Below are positions 8,028 through 37,231 of a stretch of DNA of 64,000 nt, piece after piece. The DNA comes from Phycisphaera sp. (GTDB lineage: Bacteria > Planctomycetota > Phycisphaerae > Phycisphaerales > UBA1924). Position 1 is the stretch's first letter. Every line of letters starts with the position of its first letter. The translations under genes were made by a program, and so were the position numbers. The notes below the pieces were generated by a model. The model did not search any database. It was not told where the DNA came from and worked only from the letters and a program-made list of their open reading frames with translations. The stretch covers positions 2,413,205 to 2,477,204 of the forward strand of contig CP098402.1 in assembly GCA_025916675.1 (NCBI GenBank). Direction: 5' to 3'.

Positions 8028-8088
8028 GCCGCGCTGACGCTCGACCGTTGACCCCGGCGCAGGGATTCGCGAAAGGGAGACTCGTGCA

Positions 8089-11000: not shown

Positions 11001-12297
11001 CATGGCTCGATTCGCAACCTCGGCAGCCGGCCGCGAGGATGCCAACGAGAGTATGAGGGAACTGGGCGCCATTACTCGGCGATACGTCGCCGGTGAGATC
11101 GACACGGCCCGAGCCGCTCAAGCGCTTGATTCGTTAGCCAAGCGCCGCGCCACCTTCTATCCCTTGTGGCCGCTGCTCATCGCCGCGTACCAGCACCTCG
11201 GCCTGCCCGACGAGGCCGCCCGCCGGGCGCGCGACGCGATGGCATCGCTGCCCGGCGACCCGCGCCCAGCCCGTGACGCCACGCAACTCTTGCTCGAACT
11301 CGAACGGTTCGAGGAAGCACTCGGCACGGCGGGCGAATGGCGCTCGCTGGCCGACGACGAAGCGTCTCGGGCCCAAGCCGACATGGCATTGGGTATCGCC
11401 GAGTATCGCCGGGGCAACGTCGACCGCGCGATCGGGCTGCTCGATCCGCAACTCGATCGCATGCTGTCAGACATCGACAATCACGAGCACGCTGCACGCT
11501 CGCTCGCCGAAGCGCTCACCGCCGCCGATCGGATGGACGAGGCAGAGGGCATCCTCCTGCCCCTTGCCCAAGAGAACACCGCCTGGGCCGCGTTCATGGC
11601 ATCAGTGGCTGTCGTGGCACCCGACACACAAGCCAACACCGACCGAGCCTCGAACTGGCTCGTGATGCTGACGCCACTGCTTGCGGGAGACATCGAGGGC
11701 ACCTTCAATCTGGCGTCGTCGTGGATGGTGCTCTATGACCGCACCGAAGACACAAGTGTTGCCGACCGAGTGGTCGCTCTAGCGGAGGACGCCGAACGCT
11801 CCGGGGCCGGCTCGTGGCAACTGGTCGCGATCCTGGCTACCGCGCTCGAGGCCAAAGGAGATTTCTCTCCTGCCGTGGCGGCGTACGAGCGGGCCCTGGC
11901 CCTGTCAGGAGCCAAGGTTCCCGCGTTGCTCAACAACGCGGCGTGGCTGCTTACGTCCGAACTCGGCGAACACGACCGAGCGGTAGCCCTCGCCCGCGAA
12001 GCCGTATCGTTCTCTGATGACCCGAGCTTTCCCCGTTCGGATCGCGCGGTCTTCCACCACACACTCGGGGCGGCATTGCTTGCCTCGGGTGATCCAGCGA
12101 TGGCATTGAGCACCTTTGACGACGGGCTGGCGATCGCCGACACGCCCTCGCTCCGGCTCGGGCGCATCGAGGCCCTATTGGCCGTGAATCGGCGGACCGA
12201 GGCGACCGAGTCGTTCGGGCGGTTGCGGCCGAATGACACATGGACAACGGCCCAACAAACGCGATATGAGACGCTTCGAGAGGCTCTCGGGCCGTGA
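8089..12297 (+). CDS. Giant membrane-anchored TPR protein of the exosortase/EPS locus
   Basis: At 1402 residues this is the longest gene of the locus. An N-terminal anchor (about residues 10-27) is followed almost entirely by TPR-like helical pairs, with canonical examples near the start (EGMAAYEAKDYATARRSLG) and near the end (AVAAYERALALSGAKVPALLNNAAWLL). Many middle repeats are degenerate. TPR proteins of this kind are common in exosortase-linked polysaccharide loci (PrsT-like) and are thought to scaffold the export complex; here that is inference from position. No catalytic motif was seen. The end of the gene is followed by an AT-richer 184-base gap. Confidence 0.8.
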   Translation: MNRRTKRRLIVLAAVGGVIVLAGVGGTAVRKMRRAQMAETARTEGMAAYEAKDYATARRSLGLYVRYHRDEPEVWTALGDAQRYLEEPNAKHLTNARNFLDQAVLLDPQNIRAREILLDIHEMLGNWQEMAEVASDLLELDPENDKAALLRIRANLRRGNEDEAIAAAREFVVSQDGAIEAHLEMLRVLQQSGRSARVQREYLENEVAPKHSGTTSMAVLRATVEYDANQPQRASEILLQAGEAGATDGPGARMLLDSLELIAARTRNTALFDQSEVWLVEWLEREELAPHLLEVAAGRAWRSGQPSRAVDMATRAIGLDSVNESVFGWGLLGAMELGMEGQETANRLRQAFEEQVDEEHANRADRWRQVVDAAARAARGEIASEQPLVPDGTGGINTLGPDAAGEYYDAIDDASRYSTRAAIERLAGLGQQPSWRRARFALAGILLSEGRAADALSVLNSDEGLRLSAGGTELFGDALASMIEASGTLSDENATTLDEYLVASPDNPVLLAAVGRGALVRGETDRAREVAQRLAGSEAAQAAVAAVRFAGSLQAVDAELAEAIIDRVAVTATSPRHIAAAAIGMAEIGQVDEARQLLDRRAGSVESGSTHEWTLARIKLANAIADAQSLDTLERISASNAGDPRVQIEILSATAIWADADRAGQIIARLREAQGEAGLDWRVFEASRLLENDGSIEAANAAVVLLEPVLTSVRGKRDTRAMLIAADAFERNGTIESELQALASAADGNDPLAALPRLIDRLQSLGRSELAATRLRQFVECGNVPPESRAVRLQLLQRQGMHDLAARDVESLATEGYPEYVLLAGVASRSRGSSQPLTELEIKSLDAELAPQGEIYAAQLLARVGRFDEGLARLEALPASSEAGSRAIIIAQYLNGEGKVERALDYLTRHAETSNSPDAWMEAARMLVGQMRIDEAVALLDRAVAALPGNTDIAAFRASIDSDTEATPFDRMARFATSAAGREDANESMRELGAITRRYVAGEIDTARAAQALDSLAKRRATFYPLWPLLIAAYQHLGLPDEAARRARDAMASLPGDPRPARDATQLLLELERFEEALGTAGEWRSLADDEASRAQADMALGIAEYRRGNVDRAIGLLDPQLDRMLSDIDNHEHAARSLAEALTAADRMDEAEGILLPLAQENTAWAAFMASVAVVAPDTQANTDRASNWLVMLTPLLAGDIEGTFNLASSWMVLYDRTEDTSVADRVVALAEDAERSGAGSWQLVAILATALEAKGDFSPAVAAYERALALSGAKVPALLNNAAWLLTSELGEHDRAVALAREAVSFSDDPSFPRSDRAVFHHTLGAALLASGDPAMALSTFDDGLAIADTPSLRLGRIEALLAVNRRTEATESFGRLRPNDTWTTAQQTRYETLREALGP

Positions 12298-12481
12298 TAC
12301 TTTATCAAAAACCGAACATTACATGAATTCTTGTCACGTTTGACGGTAAGCGTGATTAAATACACGCACTTACGCTTGCATTGATACCCAAACCTGTGGT
12401 ATTGTTCGGGTGTTCGGTGGTGTTGACCATCGCGCGAAAGAAAGAGAGATTATCGGATATCCGTCCGGAGGGAGTTCTAAA
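12298..12481 (+). promoter_or_regulatory. AT-richer leader of the PEP-CTERM gene with nested palindromes
   Basis: This 184-base gap is clearly richer in A and T than its surroundings. It holds two overlapping inverted repeats (AAGCGT at 12348-12353 with ACGCTT at 12372-12377; GCGTG at 12350-12354 with CACGC at 12363-12367) and a 10-base palindrome CGGATATCCG at 12454-12463. A weak promoter (TTGCAT at 12376, TATTGT at 12400, 18-base spacer) follows the first pair. A strong GGAGGGAG ribosome site stands seven bases before the ATG. It looks like a regulated, separately transcribed start for the cargo gene. Confidence 0.4.
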
Positions 12482-13168
12482 ATGAAGAAGACGATCTATG
12501 GCGGCCTCTTGGTCGCCCTGGCCACTACGGCGGCCACCGCTAGCACCGTGACCGTGACTTTCGGCGACAGCACCCGGCATGACCCGCTTCCCGGTGCTCC
12601 CGGCACCGTCGAGCGTAATCGCGGCGGCGAGTTCCTCATGACCGGCGATCTCGGCAGCTTCAGCTCGTTCTGCTTGGAGTATGACGAGACCATCGCCGAG
12701 AGCACGTACAACTTCTCGATCGACACCGTCGTGCGGTCGGGTGGTGTTGGCGGCGGGTCGCCCGACCCGCTCAGCGCCGAGACGGCCGAGTTGTACCGCC
12801 AGTTTGTGTCTGGGGCGATCGGGCCGGCCATGGGCCAGTCGAACACCGCGTTTAACAACGCCGTCCAGGACGCGTTCTGGTACCTCGAGGAAGAGCTCGG
12901 CGCCGTCGATTTCACCGCCGCGACCGCTGATGCCTCGAGCGCGAACTTCGCGAACCTGAGTGCGAGCGCCCAGACCCTGGTCGATTCGGTGTGGGGCACG
13001 ACCGCCTCGGTTGGTCGCGTCCGCGCCCTGAACCTCACGAGCATCGTGAGTGGTGCGGATCGCCAGAGCATCCTGTACATGGTGGCTATCCCGCTGCCGA
13101 GTGCTGGCGCTCTGGCACTTGCCGGCTTGTTCGGCGTTGCCGCCGTCCGCCGTCGCCGCGTGCTCTGA
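12482..13168 (+). CDS. PEP-CTERM sorting-domain secreted protein
   Basis: The 228-residue protein has an N-terminal signal peptide (MKKTIYGGLLVALATTAATA) and a C-terminal sorting tail with PLPSAG, an alanine/leucine-rich membrane segment and the basic end RRRR. The core carries FCLEYDE, a pattern seen in other planctomycete PEP-CTERM proteins, and no recognisable enzyme motif. It is the likely substrate of the exosortase at 4268. The PLPSAG form departs from the classical VPEP motif, which may reflect a matching exosortase specificity. A rho-independent terminator follows directly. Confidence 0.85.
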   Translation: MKKTIYGGLLVALATTAATASTVTVTFGDSTRHDPLPGAPGTVERNRGGEFLMTGDLGSFSSFCLEYDETIAESTYNFSIDTVVRSGGVGGGSPDPLSAETAELYRQFVSGAIGPAMGQSNTAFNNAVQDAFWYLEEELGAVDFTAATADASSANFANLSASAQTLVDSVWGTTASVGRVRALNLTSIVSGADRQSILYMVAIPLPSAGALALAGLFGVAAVRRRRVL

Positions 13169-13212
13169 CCCACCCCCTCCCAGGGCGGAGCTTATCCATC
13201 TTGTCTGATATT

Positions 13213-13245
13213 CGCGTGCCAGCTATACGCTGGCGCGCGTTTTTT
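13213..13245 (+). terminator. Rho-independent terminator after the PEP-CTERM gene
   Basis: An 11-bp stem (13213-13223 with 13229-13239, one G-T pair) closes a five-base loop TATAC and is followed by six T residues. It ends the exosortase locus before cinA. Confidence 0.92.
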
Positions 13246-13285
13246 CTGCGCCCATGGTGCCGGATGATCGCTAGGCTCGTTCGCA

Positions 13286-14629
13286 ATGACTGACCCCTCC
13301 GAACGCCCCCTCGCAGCGCTGCTCTCTATCGGTGACGAACTGGTGCTGGGCGAGAAGCTCGACACCAACTCGAAGTGGCTCGCCGATCGGCTTGGTGCCG
13401 CCGGTGTGCTCGTGGCCGAACATCGCACCGTCCCCGACCATCTCGAGACGATCGCCAACGCCATCGTGCATCTGGTCGGCGTGGCTGATGTTGTCATCGT
13501 TGGCGGGGGCCTGGGCCCCACTGCAGATGACCTCACGCGCCAGGCGCTCGGCCGGGCTCTGGAACTGCTTTCAGGCAAACCCCAGCCGCTCGTCGAAGAT
13601 CCGCGGGCCGTCGAAGCGATCCGCGGGCGATTCGAGCGTAGCGGCCGAACGATGCCGGAAGCCAACCTCGTGCAGGCCCTTCGGCCCGCGAGCGCGGAGG
13701 GACTGCCCAACGAGCATGGCACCGCCCCGGGCATGCTGGCTCGGGTACACGTGCTGGGCCGTCCGCGACTCATCGCGTGCCTGCCCGGACCACCGCGCGA
13801 GATGCGGCCCATGTTCGAAAGGGCTCTCGCGCCAGAGTTCCGCCGATTGCCGGGCGTTGCCCACGCCGAGTTGCGTGTCGCACAAGTCTTCGGCCTGGGC
13901 GAGAGCGAACTGGCGACCCGCATCGCGGACCTGATGCACCGCGACAACAACCCCGCCGTCGGCACCACCGCCTCATCGGGCATGGTGACGTGCCGCGTCC
14001 GGGCCGAGCCGTCGCGGCCGGTGCGCGGACCGTATCGGGCAACCGAGCCCCTGCTGGCCGTGGAAGAAGCACTGGCCACCATCGAGCGTTTGGCTGCGGG
14101 ATACGTCGTGAGCCGCGAGAACAGGACGCTCGGCAGCACGCTGCTGGATGAGGCGGCAACCCATGGCATCTCGATTGCGACCGCCGAATCGTGTACCGGC
14201 GGGCTCGTAGGGCAGATCTTGACGGCCGAACCGGGGAGCTCTCGTGCCTATGCCGGGGGCTGGATCACCTACAGCAACGAGATGAAGCTGCGCGAACTTG
14301 GCGTGCCGCAGGCCGATCTCGACACCTGCGGGGCGGTGAGCGCTGAGGTCGCGCGGGCGATGGCCGTTGGGGCCGCGGATCGCGCCGGTGTCGATCTTGC
14401 GCTCTCGATTACCGGCATCGCCGGCCCGGATGGCGGCACGTCCGAGAAGCCCGTTGGCACGGTCTGGGTCGGGTGTGCCCATAGGGGCCAGCCGGCACGC
14501 GCGAAGGGTTTCCGATTTGCCGGCAATCGCGACGCGATCCGGCTCTGGTCGGCCAACACGGCGTTGTTTATCGGGCTGCAGGCCATCCGTGGCCAGACCG
14601 AACACCGACTGCTCTGGGAGGACGCCTGA
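13286..14629 (+). CDS. cinA: CinA-family protein (MoaB-like domain plus NMN amidohydrolase domain)
   Basis: A two-domain, 447-residue protein. The N-terminal MoCF-like domain has LLSIGDELVLGEKLDTNS and VGGGLGPTADDLTRQA. The C-terminal domain (about residues 285-440) is the nicotinamide-nucleotide amidohydrolase (PncC) domain with TAESCTGGLVGQ, YSNEMK, SITGIAGPDGGT and EKPVGTVW. It would recycle NMN to nicotinate mononucleotide. An RBS is not obvious and the ATG lies 40 bases after the terminator T-run, so the leader is short. Confidence 0.92.
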   Translation: MTDPSERPLAALLSIGDELVLGEKLDTNSKWLADRLGAAGVLVAEHRTVPDHLETIANAIVHLVGVADVVIVGGGLGPTADDLTRQALGRALELLSGKPQPLVEDPRAVEAIRGRFERSGRTMPEANLVQALRPASAEGLPNEHGTAPGMLARVHVLGRPRLIACLPGPPREMRPMFERALAPEFRRLPGVAHAELRVAQVFGLGESELATRIADLMHRDNNPAVGTTASSGMVTCRVRAEPSRPVRGPYRATEPLLAVEEALATIERLAAGYVVSRENRTLGSTLLDEAATHGISIATAESCTGGLVGQILTAEPGSSRAYAGGWITYSNEMKLRELGVPQADLDTCGAVSAEVARAMAVGAADRAGVDLALSITGIAGPDGGTSEKPVGTVWVGCAHRGQPARAKGFRFAGNRDAIRLWSANTALFIGLQAIRGQTEHRLLWEDA

Positions 14630-25879: not shown

Positions 25880-26647
25880 TTATCGCACGGATAGTCGAGT
25901 CCCGATCGTTTCGCCGCGGATGACCGCCGCGATGTTGCCGGGCTTCTGGAAATCGAACACGACCACGGGCATGTCCTGCTCCTGGCACATGGCCAGGGCG
26001 GTCATGTCCATCACGCCCAGGCCCTTGTCGATGGCCTGGGCGAAGGTGAGGTGGTCGTACTTGGTTGCGGTGGGGTCGGTCTTGGGGTCGGCGGTGTACA
26101 CGCCGTCGACCTTGGTGGCCTTGAGCAGGCTCTGGCAGCCCAACTCCATGGCCCGGAGCGAGGCGCAGGTGTCGGTCGAGAAATAAGGGTTGCCGGTGCC
26201 GCCGGCCAAGATCACGACGCGGCCCTTCTCGAGGTGGCGGATGGCCCGGCTGCGGATGAACGTCTCCGCGACGGCCCGGATCTCGATGGCGCTCATGACC
26301 CGGCTGTCGATGCCCACCGAGGTCAGGGCCTCGCGGAGGGCCAGGGCGTTGATGACCGTGCCCAGCATGCCCATGTGGTCGGCCGTGGCCCGCTGGATGA
26401 GCCCCGCGGCGGCCAGTTGGGCGCCGCGGATGATGTTGCCGCCGCCCACGACGATGGCGAGTTGGGCCCCCTGGGTGGTCGCCTGGGCGATCTCGTTGGA
26501 GATGTCGGCCAGCAGGGCGGGGTCGACGCCGGCACCCGAGCGGCCGAAGGCCTCGCCGCTGAGCTTCAGGAGCAGTCGGTTGGGCTCCCGGTCGGCGTCG
26601 GGAGCCGTGGGTTTGGGCTTGGCGTTGGGCTCGTCGACGGTGTGCAT
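25880..26647 (-). CDS. pyrH: UMP kinase
   Basis: A 255-residue amino-acid-kinase-fold enzyme that phosphorylates UMP. Visible motifs are LLKLSGEAFG, IVVGGGNIIRG, ADHMGMLGTVINAL, VILAGGTGNPYFSTDT and KATKVDGVYTADP. The ATG at 26647 gives a short variable N-terminus before the first strand; no clear ribosome site precedes it, and the upstream frame stays open without homology. It is transcribed with frr. Confidence 0.96.
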   Translation of the reverse strand: MHTVDEPNAKPKPTAPDADREPNRLLLKLSGEAFGRSGAGVDPALLADISNEIAQATTQGAQLAIVVGGGNIIRGAQLAAAGLIQRATADHMGMLGTVINALALREALTSVGIDSRVMSAIEIRAVAETFIRSRAIRHLEKGRVVILAGGTGNPYFSTDTCASLRAMELGCQSLLKATKVDGVYTADPKTDPTATKYDHLTFAQAIDKGLGVMDMTALAMCQEQDMPVVVFDFQKPGNIAAVIRGETIGTRLSVR

Positions 26648-26914: not shown

Positions 26915-27892
26915 ATGGACCCACGCGAATCCGAGAACCAACCGCAGCCCGGAGACGGCCTCGACACCAACGAGGGCGAGCATGCCGGCGTGCTGGCGTG
27001 GGTCAACCGCCACAAGGTGCCGCTGCTGGCCAGCAGCGCGGCGGTGTCGCTGCTCGTCCACGTGATCGTGCTGGTCATCGCCGCACTCATCCAAATGAAC
27101 CAGCCGGTGGCCCAACTCGGCTCGGCGGCGTCCGAGGTCGACTTCGCGGTCATGACCGATGCGGAGCTGTCCGAAATCGCCGCCGAGGAGTTGGCTCTGG
27201 AGGCACCCGACACCGATTCTTCCAGTTCACCCCTCGAACTGCAAGCCGAGCTCGACCTTGGTGCGCTCGAGGTCGACATGTCGGACCTGGCCGAGTCGAT
27301 GGGCGACGTGACGCTCCAGATCGGCGGCGGGGACCTGGACGGCGCGGGGCTTGGTGTCGGTGACAGCGCGGGCTCGGGGGCGAGCTTCTTCGGGGTCGAG
27401 GCGCGGGGCAACCGGTTCGCGTTCGTGGTCGATACCTCGGGCTCGATGGTCAACGACGGCCGGCTGCAAGCGATGCAGCAGGAGCTCATCCGGTCGGTTA
27501 CCGGGCTCTTCAGCTCGTCGGACTTCTTCATCGTCTTCTTCAACTCCGGCGCGTACGCCCCGGGCGACCGCGGCATCGCGTGGGTCAAGGCGACCGATAG
27601 CGGCAAGAACAAGGCGCGGGGGCACATCCTGGCGACCCGGGCCGAAGGTGCGACGCGGCCGGCGTCCGGCTTCCAGTTGGTTGCCCAGCTCGAGCCGCTG
27701 CCCGATGCGATCTACTTCATGACCGACGGCGAGTTCTCCGACGACGAGGCCGAGCAGATCCTCGGGACCTTCGGCCGGCGCAACATCCCGATCCACTGCA
27801 TCACGTTCCGCAGCCGAGAGGGCGAAGCGGTCATGCGTCGGATCGCCGCCGCCACGCGCGGCACGTACACGCACATCGAGGGCCGGCCTTGA
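26915..27892 (+). CDS. Membrane-anchored von Willebrand factor A domain protein
   Basis: First gene of the eight-gene ExbBD-like operon. The 325-residue protein has a cytoplasmic N-terminus, one membrane helix (about 36-60), an acidic linker rich in Leu/Asp/Glu (80-135) and a vWA domain (about 165-320). The metal-binding MIDAS residues are present: Asp173-x-Ser175-x-Ser177 in VVDTSGSM and Asp271 in MTDGEFSD. The topology places the vWA domain outside the cytoplasm. Such domains bind partners through a metal ion, so it may be the sensing or coupling subunit. A 267-base gap separates it from the divergent pyrH; I see no strong promoter there. Confidence 0.85.
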   Translation: MDPRESENQPQPGDGLDTNEGEHAGVLAWVNRHKVPLLASSAAVSLLVHVIVLVIAALIQMNQPVAQLGSAASEVDFAVMTDAELSEIAAEELALEAPDTDSSSSPLELQAELDLGALEVDMSDLAESMGDVTLQIGGGDLDGAGLGVGDSAGSGASFFGVEARGNRFAFVVDTSGSMVNDGRLQAMQQELIRSVTGLFSSSDFFIVFFNSGAYAPGDRGIAWVKATDSGKNKARGHILATRAEGATRPASGFQLVAQLEPLPDAIYFMTDGEFSDDEAEQILGTFGRRNIPIHCITFRSREGEAVMRRIAAATRGTYTHIEGRP

Positions 27893-29064
27893 GGCCTGCG
27901 CGACGACTTGGTGTTGCCGCGATCATGATGGCGATCGCTTCCCCCGTGCTGGCACAAGGCGAAACGCTCGTGCTGCGTGCCTTCGAGCGCCCCCCCCCGG
28001 GGCAGGCGATGGGCGTGGGCCTCCAGGGCGTCCAGGTGCGCACGGGCCAGGGCGACGTCGTGATCGTCGGGTGGGACCGCGTGCTAAGGCTACCGGCGGC
28101 GTTGGCCGGGGCAGCCGAGCCGTTCGATTGGCTGGCGGTGGATGCCTGGCGTGCCCGGACCCGAATCGAGCGGGGCGATCTGGTGCTTGCCGAACCGTTG
28201 TTGCAGGGCATCATCGAGCGAGCGGATGCCCAAGGCGTGCCATTGCGCGGGCCAACGGGGCTGGTGGTGGCCGAGGGCCTGCTGCGTTGCCGGCTGGCAC
28301 GCGGGGCGAACGCGGCGGCGCTCGAGCCCTGGCTGGCGTGGATCGACGCGTCGATCGTGCGTCAGCCGCGCACGACCTTCGCGCACCGTGATTGGGCGCA
28401 AGAAGCGGGACTCCCGCCGGTGATCGACGGGACCACCGAGCTGTGCCCGCTACTGCCGCCGATGTGGCTAGCCACGCCCTCGCTCCGGCTGGTGATCCAG
28501 CTTCAACCGGCCGAGGGCGAGCGCGACAAGGCCGCGGCGATGCGTGCCTTGTATCAGGCCGCCGCACGGCACGAGCTTGGCGAAACGGTCACCGACCTGC
28601 CGGACGTGCCCCGCGAGGCTGCCAGCGAGTTGGTTCGCGACATCGTGGCGGCGCGCGTGCTTGATGACGCGGAGCGTGCATCGGCCCGGGCGCGTCTCGA
28701 GGCGGCCCTGCCGAGCGCGGCCTCGCCCTGGTTGGCCGCGTGGATCCGCGCCGCCATCGGCCGCTCGCTGGTGCTCGAAGAAGATGAAGAATCCAGGCTG
28801 CGCGGCGTGGCCCAGTTGCTGCGCGTGCACGTACTCCATCGCGACGACTCGCCCGCGCTGGCCGACATCGCGCTGGCCGAAGCCTCCGCCACGCTGGCCG
28901 TTCTCGGCCAGACCGACGCCGCCGGCTTGCTCGCACGCGAGTTGGTACGGCTCGGCCCGCAGTCTCCGGTGCTATCGTGGCCCGGGATCGCGGGTCTGCT
29001 CGACACCGCACCACCATCGACCCCGCCCGCTCCAGAAGAACCCACCGCCGGAGACACTCCATGA
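27889..29064 (+). CDS. Secreted protein of the ExbBD operon, unknown function
   Basis: A 391-residue protein with a signal peptide (IMMAIASPVLAQ, cleavage after about residue 23). The rest is Ala/Leu/Arg-rich and helical, with TPR-like stretches near the C-terminus (ADIALAEASATLAVLGQ) and a Pro-rich end. I recognise no enzyme motif. A TTG start overlaps the vWA stop (TTGA), with GAGGG just upstream, and its own stop overlaps the ExbB start, so it is firmly part of the same translational unit. Confidence 0.7.
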   Translation: MRPARRLGVAAIMMAIASPVLAQGETLVLRAFERPPPGQAMGVGLQGVQVRTGQGDVVIVGWDRVLRLPAALAGAAEPFDWLAVDAWRARTRIERGDLVLAEPLLQGIIERADAQGVPLRGPTGLVVAEGLLRCRLARGANAAALEPWLAWIDASIVRQPRTTFAHRDWAQEAGLPPVIDGTTELCPLLPPMWLATPSLRLVIQLQPAEGERDKAAAMRALYQAAARHELGETVTDLPDVPREAASELVRDIVAARVLDDAERASARARLEAALPSAASPWLAAWIRAAIGRSLVLEEDEESRLRGVAQLLRVHVLHRDDSPALADIALAEASATLAVLGQTDAAGLLARELVRLGPQSPVLSWPGIAGLLDTAPPSTPPAPEEPTAGDTP

Positions 29065-29846
29065 GCTTTGTATCGGGCGCACTCGCCCAGTTTTCCGCGC
29101 CCGCATGGACGCTGCTGGCGCAGACCACCGCGGCAACGCCGCCCAACGAGGGCAAGACGCTGCTGCAACACATCCTCTCGGGTGGGCCGATCGGCATCGT
29201 CATCATCTTGCTGTCGTTCACGGCGGTGCTGATGGCGGTGTGGCTGGTGGCGGAGATCCGCCTGCCCAGGCTCGCGCCGCCGCGCGTGGTCGAGGGGCTC
29301 GACCGGCTGCTGGCGGCCAACGACGTGCGCGGCGCGCTGGCGTTCTGCCAGGCCGAGGAGAACCGGTGCCTGCTTACGGGCATGTTCGCGGCAGCGCTCA
29401 CGCGGTGCCTGCGTTCGCCCTTCGGGTTGCTTGAATTGCGGTCGGCCTTGGAAGAGGCGGGCCAGGAGCGATTCGCGCGATTGCAACGCAAGACCGACCC
29501 GATGGGCCTCATCGCCGCGGTCGCACCGATGCTCGGTCTGCTGGGCACGGTCGTTGGTCTGGTCGGTGCCTTCGAGACGCTCAGCGTGAGCGAGGGCGTG
29601 CGGCCCGAGGCGTTGGCGTCGAGCATCTCGGTGGCGCTCATCACCACGGTGCTGGGTCTGATCGTCGCCATCCCCGCCACGGCGTTGCACAGCTTCTTTC
29701 GCAACCGCGTGGACGCGCTCGCCCAGAACGTGGCCGAGCTGACCGAAGAGTTGGCGGCCCGCATCCAGAGCTCCAAGCCCGCTGGCGGGCAGTCGCCCAC
29801 GCCCGCGGGGCGTGCGCCCGCGCCGACCACGGCCGGCGCGCGCTGA
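29061..29846 (+). CDS. MotA/TolQ/ExbB-family proton channel protein
   Basis: The 261-residue protein has three membrane helices in the ExbB order: one near residues 45-65 (GGPIGIVIILLSFTAVLMAV) and two after the cytoplasmic loop, with the family segment GLIAAVAPMLGLLGTVVGLVGAF and SVALITTVLGLIVAIPATA. ExbB/TolQ pentamers surround an ExbD/TolR dimer and turn the proton motive force into motion. The C-terminus is extended and rich in Pro, Ala and Gly. An ATGA overlap joins it to the previous gene. Confidence 0.92.
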   Translation: MSFVSGALAQFSAPAWTLLAQTTAATPPNEGKTLLQHILSGGPIGIVIILLSFTAVLMAVWLVAEIRLPRLAPPRVVEGLDRLLAANDVRGALAFCQAEENRCLLTGMFAAALTRCLRSPFGLLELRSALEEAGQERFARLQRKTDPMGLIAAVAPMLGLLGTVVGLVGAFETLSVSEGVRPEALASSISVALITTVLGLIVAIPATALHSFFRNRVDALAQNVAELTEELAARIQSSKPAGGQSPTPAGRAPAPTTAGAR

Positions 29847-29858
29847 CGGAAGGAACCG

Positions 29859-30287
29859 ATGCTCTTTGGCGCTAAACCAGCCCGGGTCCGCTTCACGGTG
29901 AACATGACGCCGATGATCGACGTGGTGCTGCTGATCATCATCTTCTTCCTGTACACGGCACGGTTCGCCGAGGTCAGCCGAACGAGCGTGGACCTGCCCG
30001 ACGAGCCCGGCACCGAAGACGCCGCGAGCGATCCCGACGCGTTGCTGATCGACGTGCGTAGCGACGGGGCGTTCCTGGTCAACGGCCGCGATCGCTCGCT
30101 GGAACGCGTGATCGAGATCGTGGAGGAACAGGCCGACCGGGCAGGCGGCCCCGAGAACCTGCGCGTGCTGCTGCGTGCCGATCGTGGCACCGCGGCCGGC
30201 CCGGTGAACGAGCTCGCCCGCCAGTTGACACGCATGGGCGTGCGGCAGTGGAGCCACGCGACCGTCGATCGATCGGGGCGGGGCTAA
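29859..30287 (+). CDS. ExbD/TolR-family protein (first copy)
   Basis: A 142-residue single-pass protein. The N-terminal motif TPMIDVVLLIIIFF holds the conserved membrane Asp that carries protons in ExbD/TolR. The periplasmic domain follows (VDLPDEPGTED, with IDVRSDGAFLVNG). GGAAGG lies just before the ATG. With the second copy three bases downstream it could form an ExbD heterodimer within the ExbB channel. Confidence 0.92.
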   Translation: MLFGAKPARVRFTVNMTPMIDVVLLIIIFFLYTARFAEVSRTSVDLPDEPGTEDAASDPDALLIDVRSDGAFLVNGRDRSLERVIEIVEEQADRAGGPENLRVLLRADRGTAAGPVNELARQLTRMGVRQWSHATVDRSGRG

Positions 30288-30290
30288 CCG

Positions 30291-30701
30291 ATGCGCGTGA
30301 GACCCGCCAGCACTCGCGGTGAGCTGGGCGAGCTGCCGCTGACGCCGATGATCGACGTGGTGTTCTTGCTACTGATCTACTTCATGGTGACGGCGACCAT
30401 CACGCCGCCCGAGAGCCGCGTGGCATCGACGCTGCAAGGCGAACGCGGCTCGGGGCAGGCCCGCGACCTGAAGCCGCAGATCGTGACGATCGACCTGACC
30501 GGGAGCACCGTGACCTATCGCCTGGGTTCGCGGGTGTTCGCCGATCGGGAATCACTGGCCGCCGCGCTCGAACAACTACCCAAGGAGGGCGGTTTGTTCG
30601 TGCGTGTGACCGATCGGGCCCCGTGGTCCGCGGTGGCGGGCGTGATGCAGGACGCGCTGGACGCGGGCTTTGTGAAGAGGACCTATGTACCGGCGGACTA
30701 G
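30291..30701 (+). CDS. ExbD/TolR-family protein (second copy)
   Basis: A 136-residue ExbD with LTPMIDVVFLLLIYFMVTATI, again with the membrane Asp, then a periplasmic domain with IVTIDLTGSTVTYRLG. The sequence differs clearly from the first copy, so the two probably have distinct partners rather than being a recent duplication. The next gene starts 17 bases before its stop. Confidence 0.92.
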   Translation: MRVRPASTRGELGELPLTPMIDVVFLLLIYFMVTATITPPESRVASTLQGERGSGQARDLKPQIVTIDLTGSTVTYRLGSRVFADRESLAAALEQLPKEGGLFVRVTDRAPWSAVAGVMQDALDAGFVKRTYVPAD

Positions 30702-33378
30702 GACCATCCCGGCTCTCGCTCTCGTGCTGACGTGCGTTGCCGGGGCCGCGCACGCGCAGGGCGACGAGGAGCGTTTCGAGGCCTACCTCGATCGGTACGA
30801 GCTGCGCGAGGTCGAGGCGGCCGACTTGCGGTATCGCTTCGAGAACGCGCCCGTCGACGAACGCCAGCCCATCGCAAAACGACTGGCGGCGCTCTATGTC
30901 GAGTTGCTCGGCTTGGCCGCGAACCCGGAAGATCGCCAGCACATCGAGCAACTCGGCCAACGGCTGACTCGGCAGCTTCCCGATGAGGTCGCGGGGGATC
31001 TGCGTCTGGCCCTCGTGCGCGCGCGGTACCAGTGGGCCAAGGAGGTCGCCGAGCGCGCCCGCCTGAACGAGGTGCCTAAGGATGACCTGGACGAGGCCGA
31101 GCGGACGCTGCGAGCGCTGGTACCCGAGCTCTCTTCGATCGCCCAGACGGCCAATGACTCGGCCTACCGACTCGATCGCCGCCGCACCGCAGTCGGCCTG
31201 GATGAGGCCCAACAAGAGGTCTACGAGGTCGCCACGCGCGTGCGCTCGACCGCGCACTACCTCCTCGGATGGACACGCTACTACCTGGCCGTCATGACCG
31301 AAGGAACGCGATACGCGAGCGATGCGCTCAAGGACCTTGGCGTGCTGCTGGGAGCCGACACGAACAAGCCCGCCAGCATCGAGCGGGCCGACGAGCGGCT
31401 GATGCGCTTCGACCATGTCGCGGATGCGGCCATCGCCGCGGCGTTCTGCGAATCCCTGCTTGGCAATGCCGACACGGCCCTTCGGTGGATCGAGAAGGTG
31501 GATTCGGCCGGCACACTCTCGGAGGGCATCCGCGAGCGGCTGTTCGTCTGCCGCCTGCTGGTGCTGGGCGAGGCCGGACGCTGGCGAGACCTGTCGTACC
31601 ACAGCGACATCAAGCGTCGCTCGCGCCGGGCCGATGGTGAGCCCGGGCTCGAACCGCTCGAATCGCAGCTGCTTGCGCACATCTCGTGGGAGGCGTTGTC
31701 GAGCCGGCGGCTGAGCCCACGCGATCGTTCCGTGCTCGAAGAGATCGCCCACGCCGCCATCCAGGACCTCGTTCGCCAGAACCAGGTGACCGTGCTGCGT
31801 TCGCTCGTCGAGCAGTTCGGCACGTCGTCGCTCGAAGGCGAGGGCTTCATATTCGCATTCGTGCGCGGGCAGAACGCCTACGAGCGGGCCACCGAGGCGT
31901 ACGAAGCCGCGGGCTACACCGACGGCCAGATCGCCGATACCGATGCCATCGCGAACCTCTACGCCGCCGCCGTTCGCGCCCTCGACGCGGCGCTCGACGC
32001 CGACGACGCGGCGCGATTCCCCGGCGAGCGTGCGCAGGCCATGCAACTGGCGGCCATGGCCGCGTACATGGGCGGCGCCTTCCTCGACGCGACCGACCGA
32101 TTCGAGCAAGCCCACGAGGCGGCCGATGACACCGAACAGGCCGAACGCGCGCTCTGGCACGCGATCGTCGCGCTCGACGCGGCCATCCGCGAGGGCGCGG
32201 GCGGTATCGAGGCCCGCCGCGATCGGTTGGTGGCCCTCTACCTCCAGAGCTTCCCCGGCACCGAGCGTGCGGCGCGCCTGCTGGTCGCCCAGGCCGGCGC
32301 GGCCTCGGCCGACGATTCCCAGGCCGTCGAGATCCTGCTGAACGTCGAGGCCGATTCGCCCTTGTACGAAGCGGCGCGGCGACGGGCCGAACGCTTGCTC
32401 TACGCGAGGCTTCGCCGGCTGACGGGCGATGCTCGCTCGGCCGCCTCGCTGCGCTACCTCACGGTTGCCGATGAACTGCTCTCGATTGATCGCCGCCGCG
32501 CCGCCACGGGCGACGTCGAGTCGGCCACGCAGGCCGCCAATCGCGCGCTGGCCCTGGCCCGCGCGATGCTCCAGGTCATCCTGGGCTCGCCCGTGCCCGA
32601 CCTCGATCGGGCCGAAGCACTCCTGGACACGGTGCAGGAACTCCGCCTGCGCGTCGGCTCACCCCCCGAGACCATCGAATCCGAGATCGCGTATCGCCGC
32701 CTGCAGGTCGCGCTCGCGCGAGACGAGGTCGAAGAGGCTCGCCGGCTGGCCCGCACGTTCGATGACGCGGACGGCGCGTTCAAGATCCTCTCGCAGCGCG
32801 CGATGTACGCGTGGGCCGCCGAACGATTCCGCGACACGCCATCCGACGTCCGCTACGCCGAGCAGGTGGTGGAATTCGGCCGGCCGGTCATCGCCGAGAT
32901 GGGCAGCGACGACGCCACGCTCGCCACCCCGCAAGCCTTTGGCGTCCACACGACCGTGGCGCGGGCGGCCTGGGTGCTGGCTCGCGGCGAAGGCCTCGAA
33001 CAAGCACAACGCGAGATGCTCGATCTGGTCGTCGCGATCGATGGGCGGCTGGTCGCCGCCGACGTGGCCGATGCGTTCTCGCTCTCGCGGTTCGCCTACG
33101 CCAGCGAGATGGCCGGCCGGCCGGGCGACGCGCTCGACGCCTGGCGGCGCTTGCTGGCGGGGGCGCCCGAAGAGTCGGCGATGGGGTTGCGGGCCCGCTA
33201 CGAGTCGGCGCGATTGCTGGGCAAAGAGGACGCGCCGCGAGCCATCGACGCGCTGCGCCAGCACCTGCTGCTGTACCCGGGCGCACCCGAACCGTGGGCC
33301 ACCCGCCTGGCCGAACTGCTCACGAGCCTCGAACGCGGCCACGACCTGCCGCCACCGGCGTTGGAGGACGCCCCGTGA
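30685..33378 (+). CDS. Large secreted TPR-like helical-repeat protein
   Basis: An 897-residue protein with a signal peptide (LALVLTCVAGAAHAQ, about 24 residues) and a mature part made of degenerate TPR-like helix pairs, such as MQLAAMAAYMGGAFLDATD, AERALWHAIVALDAAIREG and the C-terminal DALDAWRRLLAGAPEESAM. No catalytic motif was found. It sits directly behind the ExbD pair and overlaps it, so it may be the periplasmic scaffold that receives force from ExbD. This is inference from position. Confidence 0.75.
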   Translation: MYRRTRTIPALALVLTCVAGAAHAQGDEERFEAYLDRYELREVEAADLRYRFENAPVDERQPIAKRLAALYVELLGLAANPEDRQHIEQLGQRLTRQLPDEVAGDLRLALVRARYQWAKEVAERARLNEVPKDDLDEAERTLRALVPELSSIAQTANDSAYRLDRRRTAVGLDEAQQEVYEVATRVRSTAHYLLGWTRYYLAVMTEGTRYASDALKDLGVLLGADTNKPASIERADERLMRFDHVADAAIAAAFCESLLGNADTALRWIEKVDSAGTLSEGIRERLFVCRLLVLGEAGRWRDLSYHSDIKRRSRRADGEPGLEPLESQLLAHISWEALSSRRLSPRDRSVLEEIAHAAIQDLVRQNQVTVLRSLVEQFGTSSLEGEGFIFAFVRGQNAYERATEAYEAAGYTDGQIADTDAIANLYAAAVRALDAALDADDAARFPGERAQAMQLAAMAAYMGGAFLDATDRFEQAHEAADDTEQAERALWHAIVALDAAIREGAGGIEARRDRLVALYLQSFPGTERAARLLVAQAGAASADDSQAVEILLNVEADSPLYEAARRRAERLLYARLRRLTGDARSAASLRYLTVADELLSIDRRRAATGDVESATQAANRALALARAMLQVILGSPVPDLDRAEALLDTVQELRLRVGSPPETIESEIAYRRLQVALARDEVEEARRLARTFDDADGAFKILSQRAMYAWAAERFRDTPSDVRYAEQVVEFGRPVIAEMGSDDATLATPQAFGVHTTVARAAWVLARGEGLEQAQREMLDLVVAIDGRLVAADVADAFSLSRFAYASEMAGRPGDALDAWRRLLAGAPEESAMGLRARYESARLLGKEDAPRAIDALRQHLLLYPGAPEPWATRLAELLTSLERGHDLPPPALEDAP

Positions 33379-36176
33379 GCGGAACCCCACCACCACCGCC
33401 CGCAGGGCCGCGGCCCACCCCGCGCGAGGCCGCGATCGCGGGAATCCTGGGCCTTGCGCCCGATGTCGACGCCGCCGGCCTGATCGGCGTCGATCCCGAC
33501 CGGACCGACGACGGCGAAATCGTCGCCGCCCTCAACGAGCGTCTTGCGAAGGTCAACGCCCACCGGTACGGCGGCACGCCCTTGGGCGACGAAGCCCGGC
33601 TCGCGCTGCACGCCGCCGCCGCGCAGCTGCTCGGAAGCCGGCGGCGGTCGACCAGCTTCGGCGTCGAGCCCGACCAGCCAACCGATCTTCCCGCGCGATG
33701 GTCTCGCCCGCATGCATTGCCGCCCGCGCACCTGGCCCTGCAGCAGGACGCCGTGCTCGCGCTCGGCGCGCACGGCGGGTGGAACGCGACGACCATGCGG
33801 CACTTGTCGATGCTGGCCCACGCGCGCGGGCTCACGGGCGACGACCTGGCCGTGGCCCTCACGCGCCTCGCCCGCCAGAGCGGGCCGGCCGTCGCGCCGT
33901 CGGGCAACGGATCGGGTGCGGTGGATGACGGCGTTTCCGATCCCGGCCAGTATTCGCCCGCGGAGCACGCGCTCGTTCACTCGGGCAACAACGACCTCGC
34001 GTTGCTCGGCGCGATGGCGGTGGCCGTCGTGCTCACGCTCGTCGCTGCGGCGGCGGTGCTCATCGCCATCCCGGTGATGCGAAACTCCGGGCAAGCGGCC
34101 CAGCAGGCCGCTGCGGCCGAGCAGCCCGCGCCGATCGCCACCCCCTCCGGCCCGACGCCCGCAGAGCGAGACGCGGCGATCGCCGAAGCCCAGCGACCGG
34201 CCGAACCCCAACGCCAGCAGAGCACGACCCCCGACACAAAGATCGACACCATCGTGACCGACCTCCGCCTGGCCGCCGAACGCCGCAAGAAGGGCAACCC
34301 CTCGGCCCAGGCCGTGTTCGAGCGTGCGGTCAGAACACTCGCCAACAACTGGCCGCGCGTGCGCCCCGACCAGCAACAAGCAGCACTCGGGCAGGTCATC
34401 GATCACTTGTACCTGGTCCGCGAGGATCCCGCGACCACGCAACGGGTTGTTGGATTCCTCGTGGCCCCAATAGCCGAGGGCGACGGCGAGCCCACCCTGG
34501 CCGCTCGCACGTGGCAGGTGGGCGCCATCGTGCGGCTGTCGAAGGAGCAGAACCTGCCGGCACCGGCCGTCGAGGGGCTGCGGAGCTTCATCCTGGCCGA
34601 GGCCCCGCTCGAAGCACGCGCGGTGGGCGACTTTGCTGCGGGCGTGACGGTGGCGCTGCGGGCAGAGCTTGCAACCTTGTCCGAAGCGGGCAGCTTCAAC
34701 GCCGATCCGAAGGCGTGGGAGGCTTGGCTCGCGTGCGTCCAGGGGCTGGCGGCATCCGAGCCGGCGTTGGGCCATCGCCTGTTGCTGGCCGGGCTCGAGG
34801 CCGTGCTGCTAAGCGGGCCCGACCCGACCGACGAGCGTGTGTTCCAGATCGTGCGCCGGCTGGTGGTGTCGCTGCAGTGGCGTCCCCAGGACGAGTCACG
34901 GGGGCGGCTGCTGGCCTGGTTTGACGACCCGGCGATCACCATCGCCGACCTGCACGCCCTGACCAACGTGCTGGCCACCGCCTCGGGCGCTCCGGGTGTC
35001 GACCCAACCATGGTGCTGCCGGTCTTGGCCAGCCCGGCGCAACGCTCGCAAGTGCGGGACCGCTTCGCCGCCGCGTGGAACGTGCAGTCGGCCATGGCAC
35101 ACGGCGAGGTCGCCAACCGCTGGCTGGGCGAGGCCCGGCGCCACCTTGAGGCCCAGCCCGAGAACACCCCAGCGACGCTCGCCGTCGACGCCGCCGTCTC
35201 GGCGCGCCTGAGTGCGGCCGCCACGCTCCTCTGGCAGGGCCAGGCCAACGAGGCCGACACGATCCTGATGAACCTCCGCGATGGGCTCGGCGGCGGCCCC
35301 GCCCAGACGACCGCCGGCACGCGATCGATCTATTTGGCCAGCCACAGCGACCCGAGCCCCTGGGCGCTGCGGTATCTGTCGCAGCGGCGCCCCGAGTTGA
35401 AGGCCGACCTGCTGGACGAACTCGCCAGGCGGGGGCCCACGCACGCGGTCGAGGCCGAACTCATCGCCGAGGCGTTCCTTCGCGGCAAGACCATCGACGT
35501 ACGCGAGCGTGCGGGCAACCTGCTCGGCGGGTACGCGAGCAAGCCGGTGGTCATCGCCGCCGTGCTCGAGACCTTCCCGCTGCCCGGGGCCGACATGCGG
35601 CGCCGCGAGATGGTCGAGATGGTCACCGGCGTGCGCCTCCCGTCGGACGACGCTTGGGAGCTCGTCGCGCGGCGGACGCTCGTCGAACGGCTCTTGCAGC
35701 TCATGGCCTCGGAGGGCGGCCTGGCCCGCATCGACCGCGCCGCCGAGGCCATCGCCCAGGCCTACACCCGGAGCCTGGCAACCGGCTCGGCGGCGCAGAG
35801 CGACAACCCGCCCGAGCTCTCGGCTGAGTTGCTGTGGAACCGTGCCCGCCAGAGGGCCGACCGCCTCGTGCCACCGGCCATCTGGCCTTGGAGCCCCGGC
35901 GAGGTCGACCGCCGCCTGGCCGGCCGCACGAGGCTGGCCCAGGGCCGCGTGCAATGGTTCGCCGCGTACCAGTTCGCGCTCGTCGAGATCACGCTGTACA
36001 ACACCGCAGCCGAGCGCCCGTCGCTGGCGATGCGACTGGCCGACGAGCTCACGAAGATGCAGGATGCCAGGCGTGAGGCGCGCGGCGTGCTCGCGCAGGT
36101 CTCCATCGTCGAGCGCGCCCGGCTTGAGTCCTGGCGGCTCAGATTGTCCGAGGCGGCAACCGGAGGCCCGCAATGA
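33375..36176 (+). CDS. Large bitopic membrane protein of the ExbBD operon, unknown function
   Basis: A 933-residue protein with a Pro-rich cytoplasmic N-terminal region (1-205), one membrane helix (about 208-234, LLGAMAVAVVLTLVAAAAVLI) and a large helical extracytoplasmic region with weak repeat character. The N-terminal domain contains LNERLAKVNAHRYGGTPLGDEARLALHAAAAQLL, which resembles a J-domain-like or small helical bundle seen in planctomycete proteins, but I cannot name it with confidence. A GTGA overlap joins it to the TPR gene. Its single helix could span the same membrane complex as ExbB/ExbD. Confidence 0.68.
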   Translation: MSGTPPPPPAGPRPTPREAAIAGILGLAPDVDAAGLIGVDPDRTDDGEIVAALNERLAKVNAHRYGGTPLGDEARLALHAAAAQLLGSRRRSTSFGVEPDQPTDLPARWSRPHALPPAHLALQQDAVLALGAHGGWNATTMRHLSMLAHARGLTGDDLAVALTRLARQSGPAVAPSGNGSGAVDDGVSDPGQYSPAEHALVHSGNNDLALLGAMAVAVVLTLVAAAAVLIAIPVMRNSGQAAQQAAAAEQPAPIATPSGPTPAERDAAIAEAQRPAEPQRQQSTTPDTKIDTIVTDLRLAAERRKKGNPSAQAVFERAVRTLANNWPRVRPDQQQAALGQVIDHLYLVREDPATTQRVVGFLVAPIAEGDGEPTLAARTWQVGAIVRLSKEQNLPAPAVEGLRSFILAEAPLEARAVGDFAAGVTVALRAELATLSEAGSFNADPKAWEAWLACVQGLAASEPALGHRLLLAGLEAVLLSGPDPTDERVFQIVRRLVVSLQWRPQDESRGRLLAWFDDPAITIADLHALTNVLATASGAPGVDPTMVLPVLASPAQRSQVRDRFAAAWNVQSAMAHGEVANRWLGEARRHLEAQPENTPATLAVDAAVSARLSAAATLLWQGQANEADTILMNLRDGLGGGPAQTTAGTRSIYLASHSDPSPWALRYLSQRRPELKADLLDELARRGPTHAVEAELIAEAFLRGKTIDVRERAGNLLGGYASKPVVIAAVLETFPLPGADMRRREMVEMVTGVRLPSDDAWELVARRTLVERLLQLMASEGGLARIDRAAEAIAQAYTRSLATGSAAQSDNPPELSAELLWNRARQRADRLVPPAIWPWSPGEVDRRLAGRTRLAQGRVQWFAAYQFALVEITLYNTAAERPSLAMRLADELTKMQDARREARGVLAQVSIVERARLESWRLRLSEAATGGPQ

Positions 36177-37231
36177 GACCCACCATGAACCTCGCAAAGA
36201 GGCTTACGCTGTGCGTCCTGATCGCGATCCTGTTACCCGGGGCGGCCCTGGCCCAGGACTTCGCCCCGCCGGTCGAAGACCCGCAAGCCGAAGAGCCGCA
36301 ACCCGAAGAGCCGTCCGAGCAGGCCGAGCCGGAGCCGACCCCGATGCGCACCGCGATGGACCGCATCGCCGACCTGCGCGAGCGGCTCGCCGACCTCGAC
36401 GCGAGCGACGCGATGGCATACATCGAGCTGGGCGAGGAGGTGGCTTCGGAAACCGGCTCGCCCGAAGACCGCGATCTGGCGCGCCACCTGTACGCCGTGG
36501 CCTACGACCTCGAACGCGAGACACGCGCGCGGCCCGAGGTGATCGCGGGCGCGTGCCTCGGCCTGGCCTCGCTCGAGGTCTCGGACGAGGGGTCGGCCTG
36601 GCTCTACGCGGTTGCTGGTCTTGTCGACCCACGCGCCACACGCGGCGAGGGCGCGGGTGTCACGACGCTGGCCATCGCCCCGGACGTTGCCGTGGCCGCC
36701 GCGAACGCGCTGGGCCTGGCTCGCTCGGGCGAGGGACGCCGGGCCGGACGCATCTACGAGGATCCGGCCGTCCACCAGGTATTCGATCGCTACGGCCGGC
36801 TGCTTGGCGGCACTGGCGGGCTGAGCGGGCTGAACCGCTTCGAGCGCGCCCTAAGAGACTGGCCCGACCTGGAATGCGGCGGCTCGCGGGTCATCACGCG
36901 GCGCGGCGAGGATGGCATCGAGACCCACCTGTGCCCGAGCTGCCGGGGCAATCCCGGCCCGCCCATGAGCGAGCAGGAGTTCCTCAACCAGCTGCGCTTC
37001 GAGAGCCGCTTGCTGCGGGGCATCCACCAGAGCTGGGGCGCCCAGATCGCGGCCGATGGCGGTGCGCCGCTGCTCGACCCGGACCCGGATCGCGTGCCCG
37101 AGCTGCTGATCGCCCGCTACGGCACCGATACTGCCAAGCGGCTGTGGCGCGGCGGCGTGTGGTTCGAGCCGCCGGCCTCACCGGCCCCAACCCAAGACCC
37201 GCCGGCAGAAGAGCCAACGCCCGGGCCGTAG
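36173..37231 (+). CDS. Secreted protein with CPSC motif, last gene of the ExbBD operon
   Basis: A 352-residue protein with a signal peptide (VLIAILLPGAALAQ), an acidic Pro/Glu-rich spacer (30-58), a helical middle and a C-terminal part with LCPSCRGNPGPPMSEQEF. The CPSC pair plus Cys in DLECGG could form a disulfide or bind metal. The end is again Pro/Glu-rich. No family is recognised. The ATGA overlap with the preceding gene and the gap before the next gene mark the end of the operon. Confidence 0.68.
   Translation: MRPTMNLAKRLTLCVLIAILLPGAALAQDFAPPVEDPQAEEPQPEEPSEQAEPEPTPMRTAMDRIADLRERLADLDASDAMAYIELGEEVASETGSPEDRDLARHLYAVAYDLERETRARPEVIAGACLGLASLEVSDEGSAWLYAVAGLVDPRATRGEGAGVTTLAIAPDVAVAAANALGLARSGEGRRAGRIYEDPAVHQVFDRYGRLLGGTGGLSGLNRFERALRDWPDLECGGSRVITRRGEDGIETHLCPSCRGNPGPPMSEQEFLNQLRFESRLLRGIHQSWGAQIAADGGAPLLDPDPDRVPELLIARYGTDTAKRLWRGGVWFEPPASPAPTQDPPAEEPTPGP

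Follow-up and report, generated by a model that had tools for sequence, protein, structure and literature searches.

Eight co-directional open reading frames (ORFs) on the plus strand of a Phycisphaera sp. genome, at positions 26915–37231 of the window (the whole 64,000-nucleotide stretch of contig CP098402.1 that was analysed), probably encode one trans-envelope force machine in which a membrane-anchored protein with a von Willebrand factor A (vWA) domain acts as the transducer. Among proton-driven machines working across the periplasm, Tol and Ton are the ones studied in depth; for vWA, put forward as a third output module, the basis is sequence and structure prediction only (Williams-Jones et al., 2025; PMC12204202). 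In the operon the vWA protein is most likely the transducer, because a docking pair lies in its membrane helix, a box follows that helix, and the proton-carrying ExbD aspartate and the pair of channel threonines of ExbB are kept. The data support a scheme in which only the C-terminal output domain of TonB/TolA has been replaced by a vWA domain. The features of the operon are as follows.

26915–27892, plus strand: gene 1, membrane-anchored vWA protein of 325 residues, proposed force transducer (ORF; Pfam VWA_3, 31.6 bits)
27023–27094, plus strand: transmembrane helix of the vWA protein, approximately residues 37–60, with S45-x3-H49 (hydropathy; motif in 83/83 aligned rows)
27134–27169, plus strand: box EVDFAVMTDAEL, residues 74–85, candidate ExbD-binding motor box or D-box (from its location after the helix)
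27419–27871, plus strand: vWA domain with an intact metal ion-dependent adhesion site (MIDAS) (Pfam VWA_3 at residues 169–319)
27889–29064, plus strand: gene 2, TTG start, predicted periplasmic protein with a small β part and a TPR-like helical solenoid (AlphaFold2, pLDDT 92.7)
29061–29846, plus strand: gene 3, ExbB/TolQ-type proton-channel subunit (Pfam MotA_ExbB, 95.3 bits)
29859–30287, plus strand: gene 4, ExbD1 (D1) with Asp21 (Pfam ExbD, 68.8 bits)
30291–30701, plus strand: gene 5, ExbD2 (D2) with Asp22 (Pfam ExbD, 54 bits; apart from D1 on the tree)
30685–33378, plus strand: gene 6, predicted secreted α-helical repeat (TPR-like) protein of 897 residues (weak ARM/TPR matches)
33375–36176, plus strand: gene 7, GTG start, bitopic protein of 933 residues (AlphaFold2, pLDDT 84.7)
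33414–33662, plus strand: N-terminal helical domain of gene 7, ahead of the membrane helix, with a J-domain-like layout (AlphaFold2 helices)
33996–34064, plus strand: transmembrane helix of gene 7, residues 208–230 (AlphaFold2)
34227–36158, plus strand: predicted periplasmic α-solenoid of gene 7, approximately residues 285–928 (AlphaFold2; HEAT/armadillo-type structural matches)
36173–37231, plus strand: gene 8, predicted secreted protein of a CxxC-motif family (motif count; weak zinc-ribbon matches)

All eight ORFs, which a sequence-only reading of this DNA had gathered into an ExbB/ExbD operon with a vWA protein, were confirmed. The junctions measure, in gene order, -4, -4, +12, +3, -17, -4 and -4 bases, five of the seven being overlaps, and 28 bases separate the end of gene 8 from the start of the next gene. 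On the basis of this spacing, the eight genes would form a single transcript; between positions 26000 and 38000 no promoter-like site was found, and terminator-like sites numbered 3 against 3.6 expected. Pfam and NCBIfam support the assignments of the vWA protein, ExbB and both ExbD proteins. The products of genes 2, 6, 7 and 8 match no Pfam or NCBIfam family above cut-off: genes 2 and 7 have zero Pfam matches at E ≤ 1, gene 8 has a sub-threshold zinc-ribbon match only (E 0.69) and gene 6 a sub-threshold ARM_TT21 match only (E 0.0022). The earlier statement that the partners are of no known family is outdated for the vWA protein (PMC12204202). Signal peptides in the products of genes 2, 6 and 8 were judged by eye, with no predictor, from a hydrophobic start ending in AQ.

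Relatives were collected by a vWA-based scan of genome contigs with six peptide patterns. The scan gave 88 relatives, and the best 80 of the 88 were used as loci. The 83 rows of the vWA alignment (A6) are the window, 65 rows from the 80 loci and 17 from additional ones; L057 and L080 (truncated), L083 (misplaced), 12 mostly near-copies and L197 (a 47-bit match) were left out. The membrane helices of TonB and TolA share a Ser-x3-His-x6-Leu-x3-Ser pattern, and TonB Ser16 and His20 contact ExbB Ser34 and Trp38, the latter touching Pro190 (PMC12215075; PMC12905483). The vWA helix of the window has the Ser-x3-His docking-pair pattern as S45-x3-H49. Indeed, [ST]xxxH, a motif that lies outside all six search patterns, is present in 83/83 rows of A6 (82 Ser, 1 Thr), and H49 is the sole invariant residue of the helix. 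Across the 80 loci SxxxH occurs in 76 and TxxxH in 2 (L030 and L045), with 2 cut off (L057 and L080), which amounts to 78/78 complete N-termini; a further 18/18 vWA matches from the order, class and phylum also have SxxxH. As a control, [ST]xxxH was counted in hydrophobic segments of gene-like ORFs from the same loci and was found in 5/402, or in 0/24 under a stricter choice of segment.

The linker that follows the helix contains a short hydrophobic box, EVDFAVMTDAEL, a candidate strand located, by position, where TonB and TolA have the ExbD/TolR-binding stretch termed motor box or D-box (PMC12204202; PMC12905483). The C-terminal part has the vWA fold, with VWA_3 above cut-off and a PDB vWA chain matched by the A6 profile at E 1e-13. 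MIDAS residues D173, S175, S177, T247 and D271 are the same in 83/83 rows, D271 partly by choice since one search pattern includes it; the intact MIDAS of the sequence-only reading is thus borne out. No TonB_C domain was found in the vWA protein with Pfam. That reading had also listed TonB and TolA as missing, which stands for the TonB_C and TolA C-terminal domains; the vWA protein itself, however, bears a TonB/TolA-type docking pair and an ExbD-binding-like box.

The motor subunits were aligned as 33 ExbB rows (A4) and 51 ExbD rows (A5), both picked for spread. ExbB residues S52, T163, T196 and P205 are invariant in 33/33 rows, the Thr and Pro positions lying within the significant HMMER segment of the TolQ alignment, and the proton-carrying Asp of ExbD is present in all 51 D1 and D2 rows. 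Exactly two ExbD genes occur in 60/60 ExbD-bearing loci. An ExbD tree of 71 rows, drawing on 21 of these 60 loci, places D1 (35 rows) and D2 (34 rows) on opposite sides of one branch, which was recovered in 98% of 200 bootstrap trees and whose support of 78/93 is drawn as weak. The two ExbD proteins of another set in the same genome (L167, described below) fall one on each side of it. Seven rows were dropped from the tree because the motif rule or ORF pick failed (D2 of L149, L150, L153 and L164; D1 of L183, L184 and L186). D1 and D2 are read here as an old, kept pair, and the simplest reading is that they form a heterodimer in the ExbB pore.

The operon is widely kept. The records of 76/80 loci carry the label Planctomycetota or Phycisphaerae or that of a taxon within these; the remaining four are labelled ‘bacterium’ (L022, L074 and L083) or Cyanobacteria (L026). 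Gene 6 of this last record (RHKP01000002.1, ‘Cyanobacteria bacterium CYA’) groups tightly with that of planctomycete L040, and the record is probably mislabelled or a mixed bin. Gene order was counted, using iterated profiles for the partner genes, in the 63 loci whose sequence extends 8.5 kb or more beyond the vWA gene, itself present by choice. Genes 2, 6 and 7 were each found in 63/63 (for a clean gene-2 profile with a lowest score of 146 bits) and gene 8 in 62/63, the exception being L075, whose stretch stops just past gene 7; ExbB-ExbD1-ExbD2 is present in 52/63. Since the gene order is the same as in the window in 63/63 loci, the eight-gene set is far beyond chance. Across all 80 loci, 61 have ExbB, 13 have the vWA gene adjoining gene 2/6 without ExbB, and 6 end too early.

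A single-sequence search with gene 7 reached the genus only (4/199); profiles went further. In family f70, of a different class from that of the window, 6/8 drawn genomes have all eight genes in order, gene 7 scoring only 40–86 bits; in one genome gene 8 and ExbB lie on different contigs (G371) and another has no gene-8 match (G292). The gene-8 profile matched 32 of 392 phylum genomes, 25 of them strongly, and the other 7 matches (18.5–24.4 bits) are probably chance. Surroundings were inspected in 15 of the 25 strong genomes and in 14 of the 15 the match lies inside the operon; the exception is again G371, where it lies on a 10-kb contig (L159) that has no gene 7 match. ExbB reached at least 215 bits, a line drawn by eye, in 26/392 phylum genomes. 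Just above this line, G296 and G057 (L186 and L187) have vWA-ExbB-ExbD-ExbD with a weak gene-6 match and without genes 2, 7 and 8. In two order-mates of the window, other SxxxH membrane proteins lie directly 3′ of ExbB-ExbD-ExbD (L182:10287–11456 and L183:10170–11330); they give no vWA-profile match and are perhaps a related transducer class.

The ExbB-D1-D2 trio acts as a cassette: it is missing as a unit from 11/63 operons, 11/11 of which lose all three genes. Among 13 cassette-less genomes, 5 have an operon-type ExbB elsewhere (261–276 bits), and ExbB-D1-D2 stands together at 5/5 of these unlinked sites; five linked control genomes, which match by construction as members of the ExbB profile, scored 312–337 bits. 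Three further cassette-less operons were found. One is in a genome with a 257.7-bit ExbB on a different contig (G305); in the other two, G279 (98% complete) and G329 (96%), the best ExbB matches have E 5.7e-39 and 3.0e-36, which is the range of generic ExbB. On a gene-6 tree, built with a quick method, the absence of the linked cassette takes 5 changes, and well supported branches make at least 4 of these necessary. Every vWA row retains the docking His, cassette-less loci included. It is suggestive only, but cassette-less operons may use another ExbB. The description of the machine as self-contained is hence not general, the motor genes being lost from some operons and kept elsewhere in 5/13 of the cassette-less genomes. 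Scattering of the unknown proteins away from ExbB/ExbD, a check attached to the sequence-only reading, gave a divided answer: operons without linked ExbB/ExbD exist, two of the 14 in-operon gene-8 genomes (G279 and G329) are without any operon-type ExbB and the G371 match stands on a contig without a gene 7 match, but the inspected gene-8 matches otherwise keep to the operon.

The box was scored with a leave-one-out matrix, with L042 set apart as ambiguous, five contig-end loci treated as unknown, and L049 and L066 outside the alignment. The 52 linked rows had a median of 30.3 (2.0 to 41.8), 3 rows with an unlinked motor a median of 19.1 (9.3 to 30.9) and 7 rows without any operon-type motor a median of -2.9 (-8.7 to 9.1). 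The box thus differs in rows with no cassette of their own, which fall into just two clades of the gene-6 tree, and the Mann-Whitney p of these scores is not drawn from independent rows. Low scores are also seen in linked-motor lineages (f70 -3.3, f81 5.9, others -13.5). The covariation is therefore a hint, from two events, that change in the box may track loss of the motor cassette.

The AlphaFold2 model of gene 2 (pLDDT 92.7) has a small β part and TPR-like helices, and VIA-align matched it to TPR chains with Z up to 13.5 over 245 residues at a root mean square deviation (rmsd) of 7.6, a Z near 13 being, by the program's own warning, common among helical repeats. For gene 6, ‘TPR’ proved a weak label: of 21 members scanned at E ≤ 0.1, ARM_TT21 was found in 4 and each TPR model in at most 2, and its PDB profile search gave a single match, an engineered TPR protein (E 0.0052). 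The gene 7 model is good outside its linkers (pLDDT 84.7). It starts with the helical N-terminal domain, crosses the membrane with a single helix and continues as a long solenoid; for the latter, VIA-align matched chains of HEAT/armadillo type, at best with Z 10.6 and an rmsd of 2.8 over 116 residues. The HEAT/armadillo and TPR likenesses are general arrangements and therefore show no function. The N-terminal helices of gene 7 (33–37, 46–62 and 69–94, with H63 between) have a layout like that of a J-domain; the H63 position is His in 50/54 rows, and HPD occurs in just 1/54. Comparison of this N-terminus with a J-domain by hhalign gave a probability of 4.5% and P 0.009, against P 0.03–0.43 for six other segments, and the Pfam listing at E ≤ 1 has no DnaJ. 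PDB profile searches with genes 7, 8 and 2 gave a best match of only E 0.047 or weaker, and Foldseek returned no match at E ≤ 0.001 for the models of genes 7 and 2.

Gene 8 has a CxxC...CxxC motif in 42/53 relatives. The window protein keeps C235, C254 and C257, and it and its three nearest kin retain 3/4 Cys; in L078 the motif is absent. In a clade of six loci (L032, L033, L058, L062, L069 and L071) a CRGR...C sequence of other spacing replaces it, which means that this clade does not retain the metal-like site. Two kinds of fusion were found. Genes 2 and 6 form one ORF in two close relatives, both without the motor trio (L066:10508–14539 and L072:10449–14531), and genes 7 and 8 form one ORF in loci of different families (L034:16165–19809, 1215 residues; L161:6080–10426, 1449 residues). 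The fusions argue for association.

These data point to an energised machine of the envelope whose output domain is vWA in place of that of TonB/TolA, as the sequence-only reading had supposed; the docking pair and the kept motor residues support it. ExbB would form the proton channel with ExbD1 and ExbD2, probably as a heterodimer, in its pore. The Ser45/His49 helix of the vWA protein would dock on ExbB at Ser52 and Pro205, and the box just past the membrane would be gripped by the periplasmic parts of ExbD1/D2, such that proton flow could pull or wind the vWA linker. The metal site of the vWA domain may bind a ligand, the likeliest candidates being the co-encoded gene 2 and gene 6 products and the gene 7 solenoid; the periplasmic helical proteins may link the domain with the wall or outer membrane. 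Transmission of force by both the vWA and TPR proteins had been suggested; the vWA part is supported, but nothing shows force transmission by gene 6. Gene 7 may be an inner-membrane scaffold spanning cytoplasm to periplasm. As a guess, the role in the cell is envelope maintenance or tethering. A fuller and less likely version would be a machine as old as the phylum, whose motor, with a heterodimeric ExbD, pulls a MIDAS-gated hook via a periplasmic solenoid chain; gene 7 would link a cytoplasmic sensor domain to the periplasmic part, and the motor would serve as a plug-in cassette. Operons that lost the cassette might have adjusted the ExbD-binding box so as to use a different ExbB/ExbD of the cell.

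Several observations weigh against the vWA protein as transducer of this motor. The second half of the TonB/TolA helix pattern (SHLS) is mostly missing, with Leu in 13/83 rows and the second Ser in 4/83; the window has A56 and Q60. This half was not taken as family-defining, because it is not well conserved for Ton (PMC12215075) and because ‘many’ vWA transducers, not all, are said to carry the SHLS motif (PMC12204202). The NCBIfam model tolA_full matches only 5/83 vWA members (best E 0.019). The post-helix box is variable, also alongside linked motor genes (L024, L076 and family f70). In ExbB, the equivalence of S52 to TolQ S28 comes from a non-significant HMMER segment (-0.4 bits), the Trp-equivalent position is never Trp in 33 rows (V 22, L 6, T 2, and F, M and I 1 each) and the E176-equivalent is Glu in 3/33; the published contact network is therefore not fully kept. 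The absence of motor genes from 11/63 operons counts here too, as does the finding that 8/13 cassette-less genomes, drafts whose completeness is unstated, have no ExbB above 128.5 bits. Finally, 11/18 wider stretches around ExbB, L182 and L183 among the 11, have no vWA-profile match (7/18 have one), so this motor type is not always paired with such a vWA protein.

The genome of the window is a single contig, 99.97% complete, in which ExbB has three matches besides that of the operon; the surroundings of two of these are as follows. L166 (C1:3414500–3434400; 6664–14128, minus strand) has in a row a TPR protein (a 1163-residue frame), ExbB, ExbD and a 982-residue PD40-propeller frame, and looks like a Tol-like locus with no TolA recognised. 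L167 (C1:3104300–3124200; 9786–14592) has ExbB, two ExbD and a long FG-GAP-repeat frame. OmpA has three matches in the genome, all away from the operon. A Tol-Pal-like role in energised constriction or tethering of the outer membrane at division is possible, though the less probable course: TPR-like proteins of the periplasm next to a motor of TolQ/TolR type are reminiscent of CpoB, and among NCBIfam families ExbB matches TolQ best, if far under its cut-off (71.8 vs 221 bits). No TolB or Pal family was found among the eight proteins with Pfam, however, and L166 is the more Tol-like set of the same cell.

That the operon encodes an adhesion or surface-motility machine like AglRQS of Myxococcus, its vWA protein being an adhesin or track component and not an internal hook, is unlikely. 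The presence of exactly two ExbD genes in every ExbD-bearing locus fits such a machine, and a gliding role for vWA proteins of this family has been suggested (PMC12204202), but by hydropathy the vWA protein looks anchored in the inner membrane and has a short linker, and the eight proteins match no known outer-membrane family (Pfam). Quite unlikely is a motor that serves gene 7 or gene 6, with the vWA protein a regulator or assembly factor merely beside ExbB in the membrane. Cassette-less operons do retain vWA and genes 2, 6 and 7, so these may have a role that needs no linked motor; the membrane His, however, is invariant with or without the cassette, which a plain anchor would not need. TonB-like nutrient uptake, in which the vWA protein would pull unlinked outer-membrane receptors to import substrates, shares motor class and docking pair with TonB but is very unlikely and was rejected, since the operon has no receptor gene, the output domain is not TonB_C and neither TonB_C nor Plug is matched in the own genome, though both were in the controls (E. 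coli, Caulobacter and Bacteroides); among 13 family genomes 3 have a Plug match, and one relative (G414) has a below-cut-off TonB_C match. The cell therefore has several proton-driven sets, and the operon, as one of them, does not amount to classical Ton uptake.

The Zorya defence system shares a weak ExbB–ZorA match (PADLOC, E 0.00045); this likeness is confined to the channel part of ExbB, the other seven proteins have no PADLOC match at E ≤ 0.001, and Zorya-type defence was rejected. The AglRQS gliding motor of Myxococcus is made, like the operon motor, of one TolQ-type and two TolR-type subunits. NCBIfam, by contrast, gives no Glt family for the eight proteins, Glt genes not having been searched genome-wide. 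A vWA protein is mentioned in the AglRQS system (PMC12204202). With TonB-ExbB-ExbD the operon shares the channel subunits, the proton-carrying Asp, the helix docking pair and, as a candidate, the post-membrane box; it differs in its vWA C-terminal domain, its two unlike ExbDs and its lack of a receptor. With TolQ-TolR-TolA and TolB/Pal/CpoB it shares the motor class and encodes helical-repeat periplasmic proteins, but TolB, Pal and the TolA C-domain are absent among its eight proteins.

The closest relative is the SHLS-vWA family of force transducers reported from phyla including Planctomycetes, with function unknown, whose neighbours in the PVC group are a TPR gene, a tolQ-like gene and a tolR-like pair and for which AlphaFold 3 models with the docking His were presented (Williams-Jones et al., 2025; PMC12204202). 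By term search of its open text, a 2026 review mentions neither vWA nor von Willebrand (PMC12905483), and the fixed eight-gene set was not found in searches of open-licence full texts. Shared with the family are the Ser-x3-His helix, a candidate motor-box-like linker stretch, the C-terminal vWA domain and the TolQ-like, two unlike TolR-like and TPR neighbours, the last under the weak gene-6 label. The operon differs in that the SHLS Leu and last Ser are mostly absent, and the open text of PMC12204202 makes no mention of genes 2, 7 and 8, a fixed order, a detachable trio or fusions. The motor and vWA core is thus already described, if untried, and the eight-gene form with four further envelope proteins is an unstudied variant of it. 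This variant supplies the vWA module with a conserved parts list of helical-repeat and zinc-motif envelope proteins in planctomycetes, and the operons that lost or moved the motor are natural test cases.

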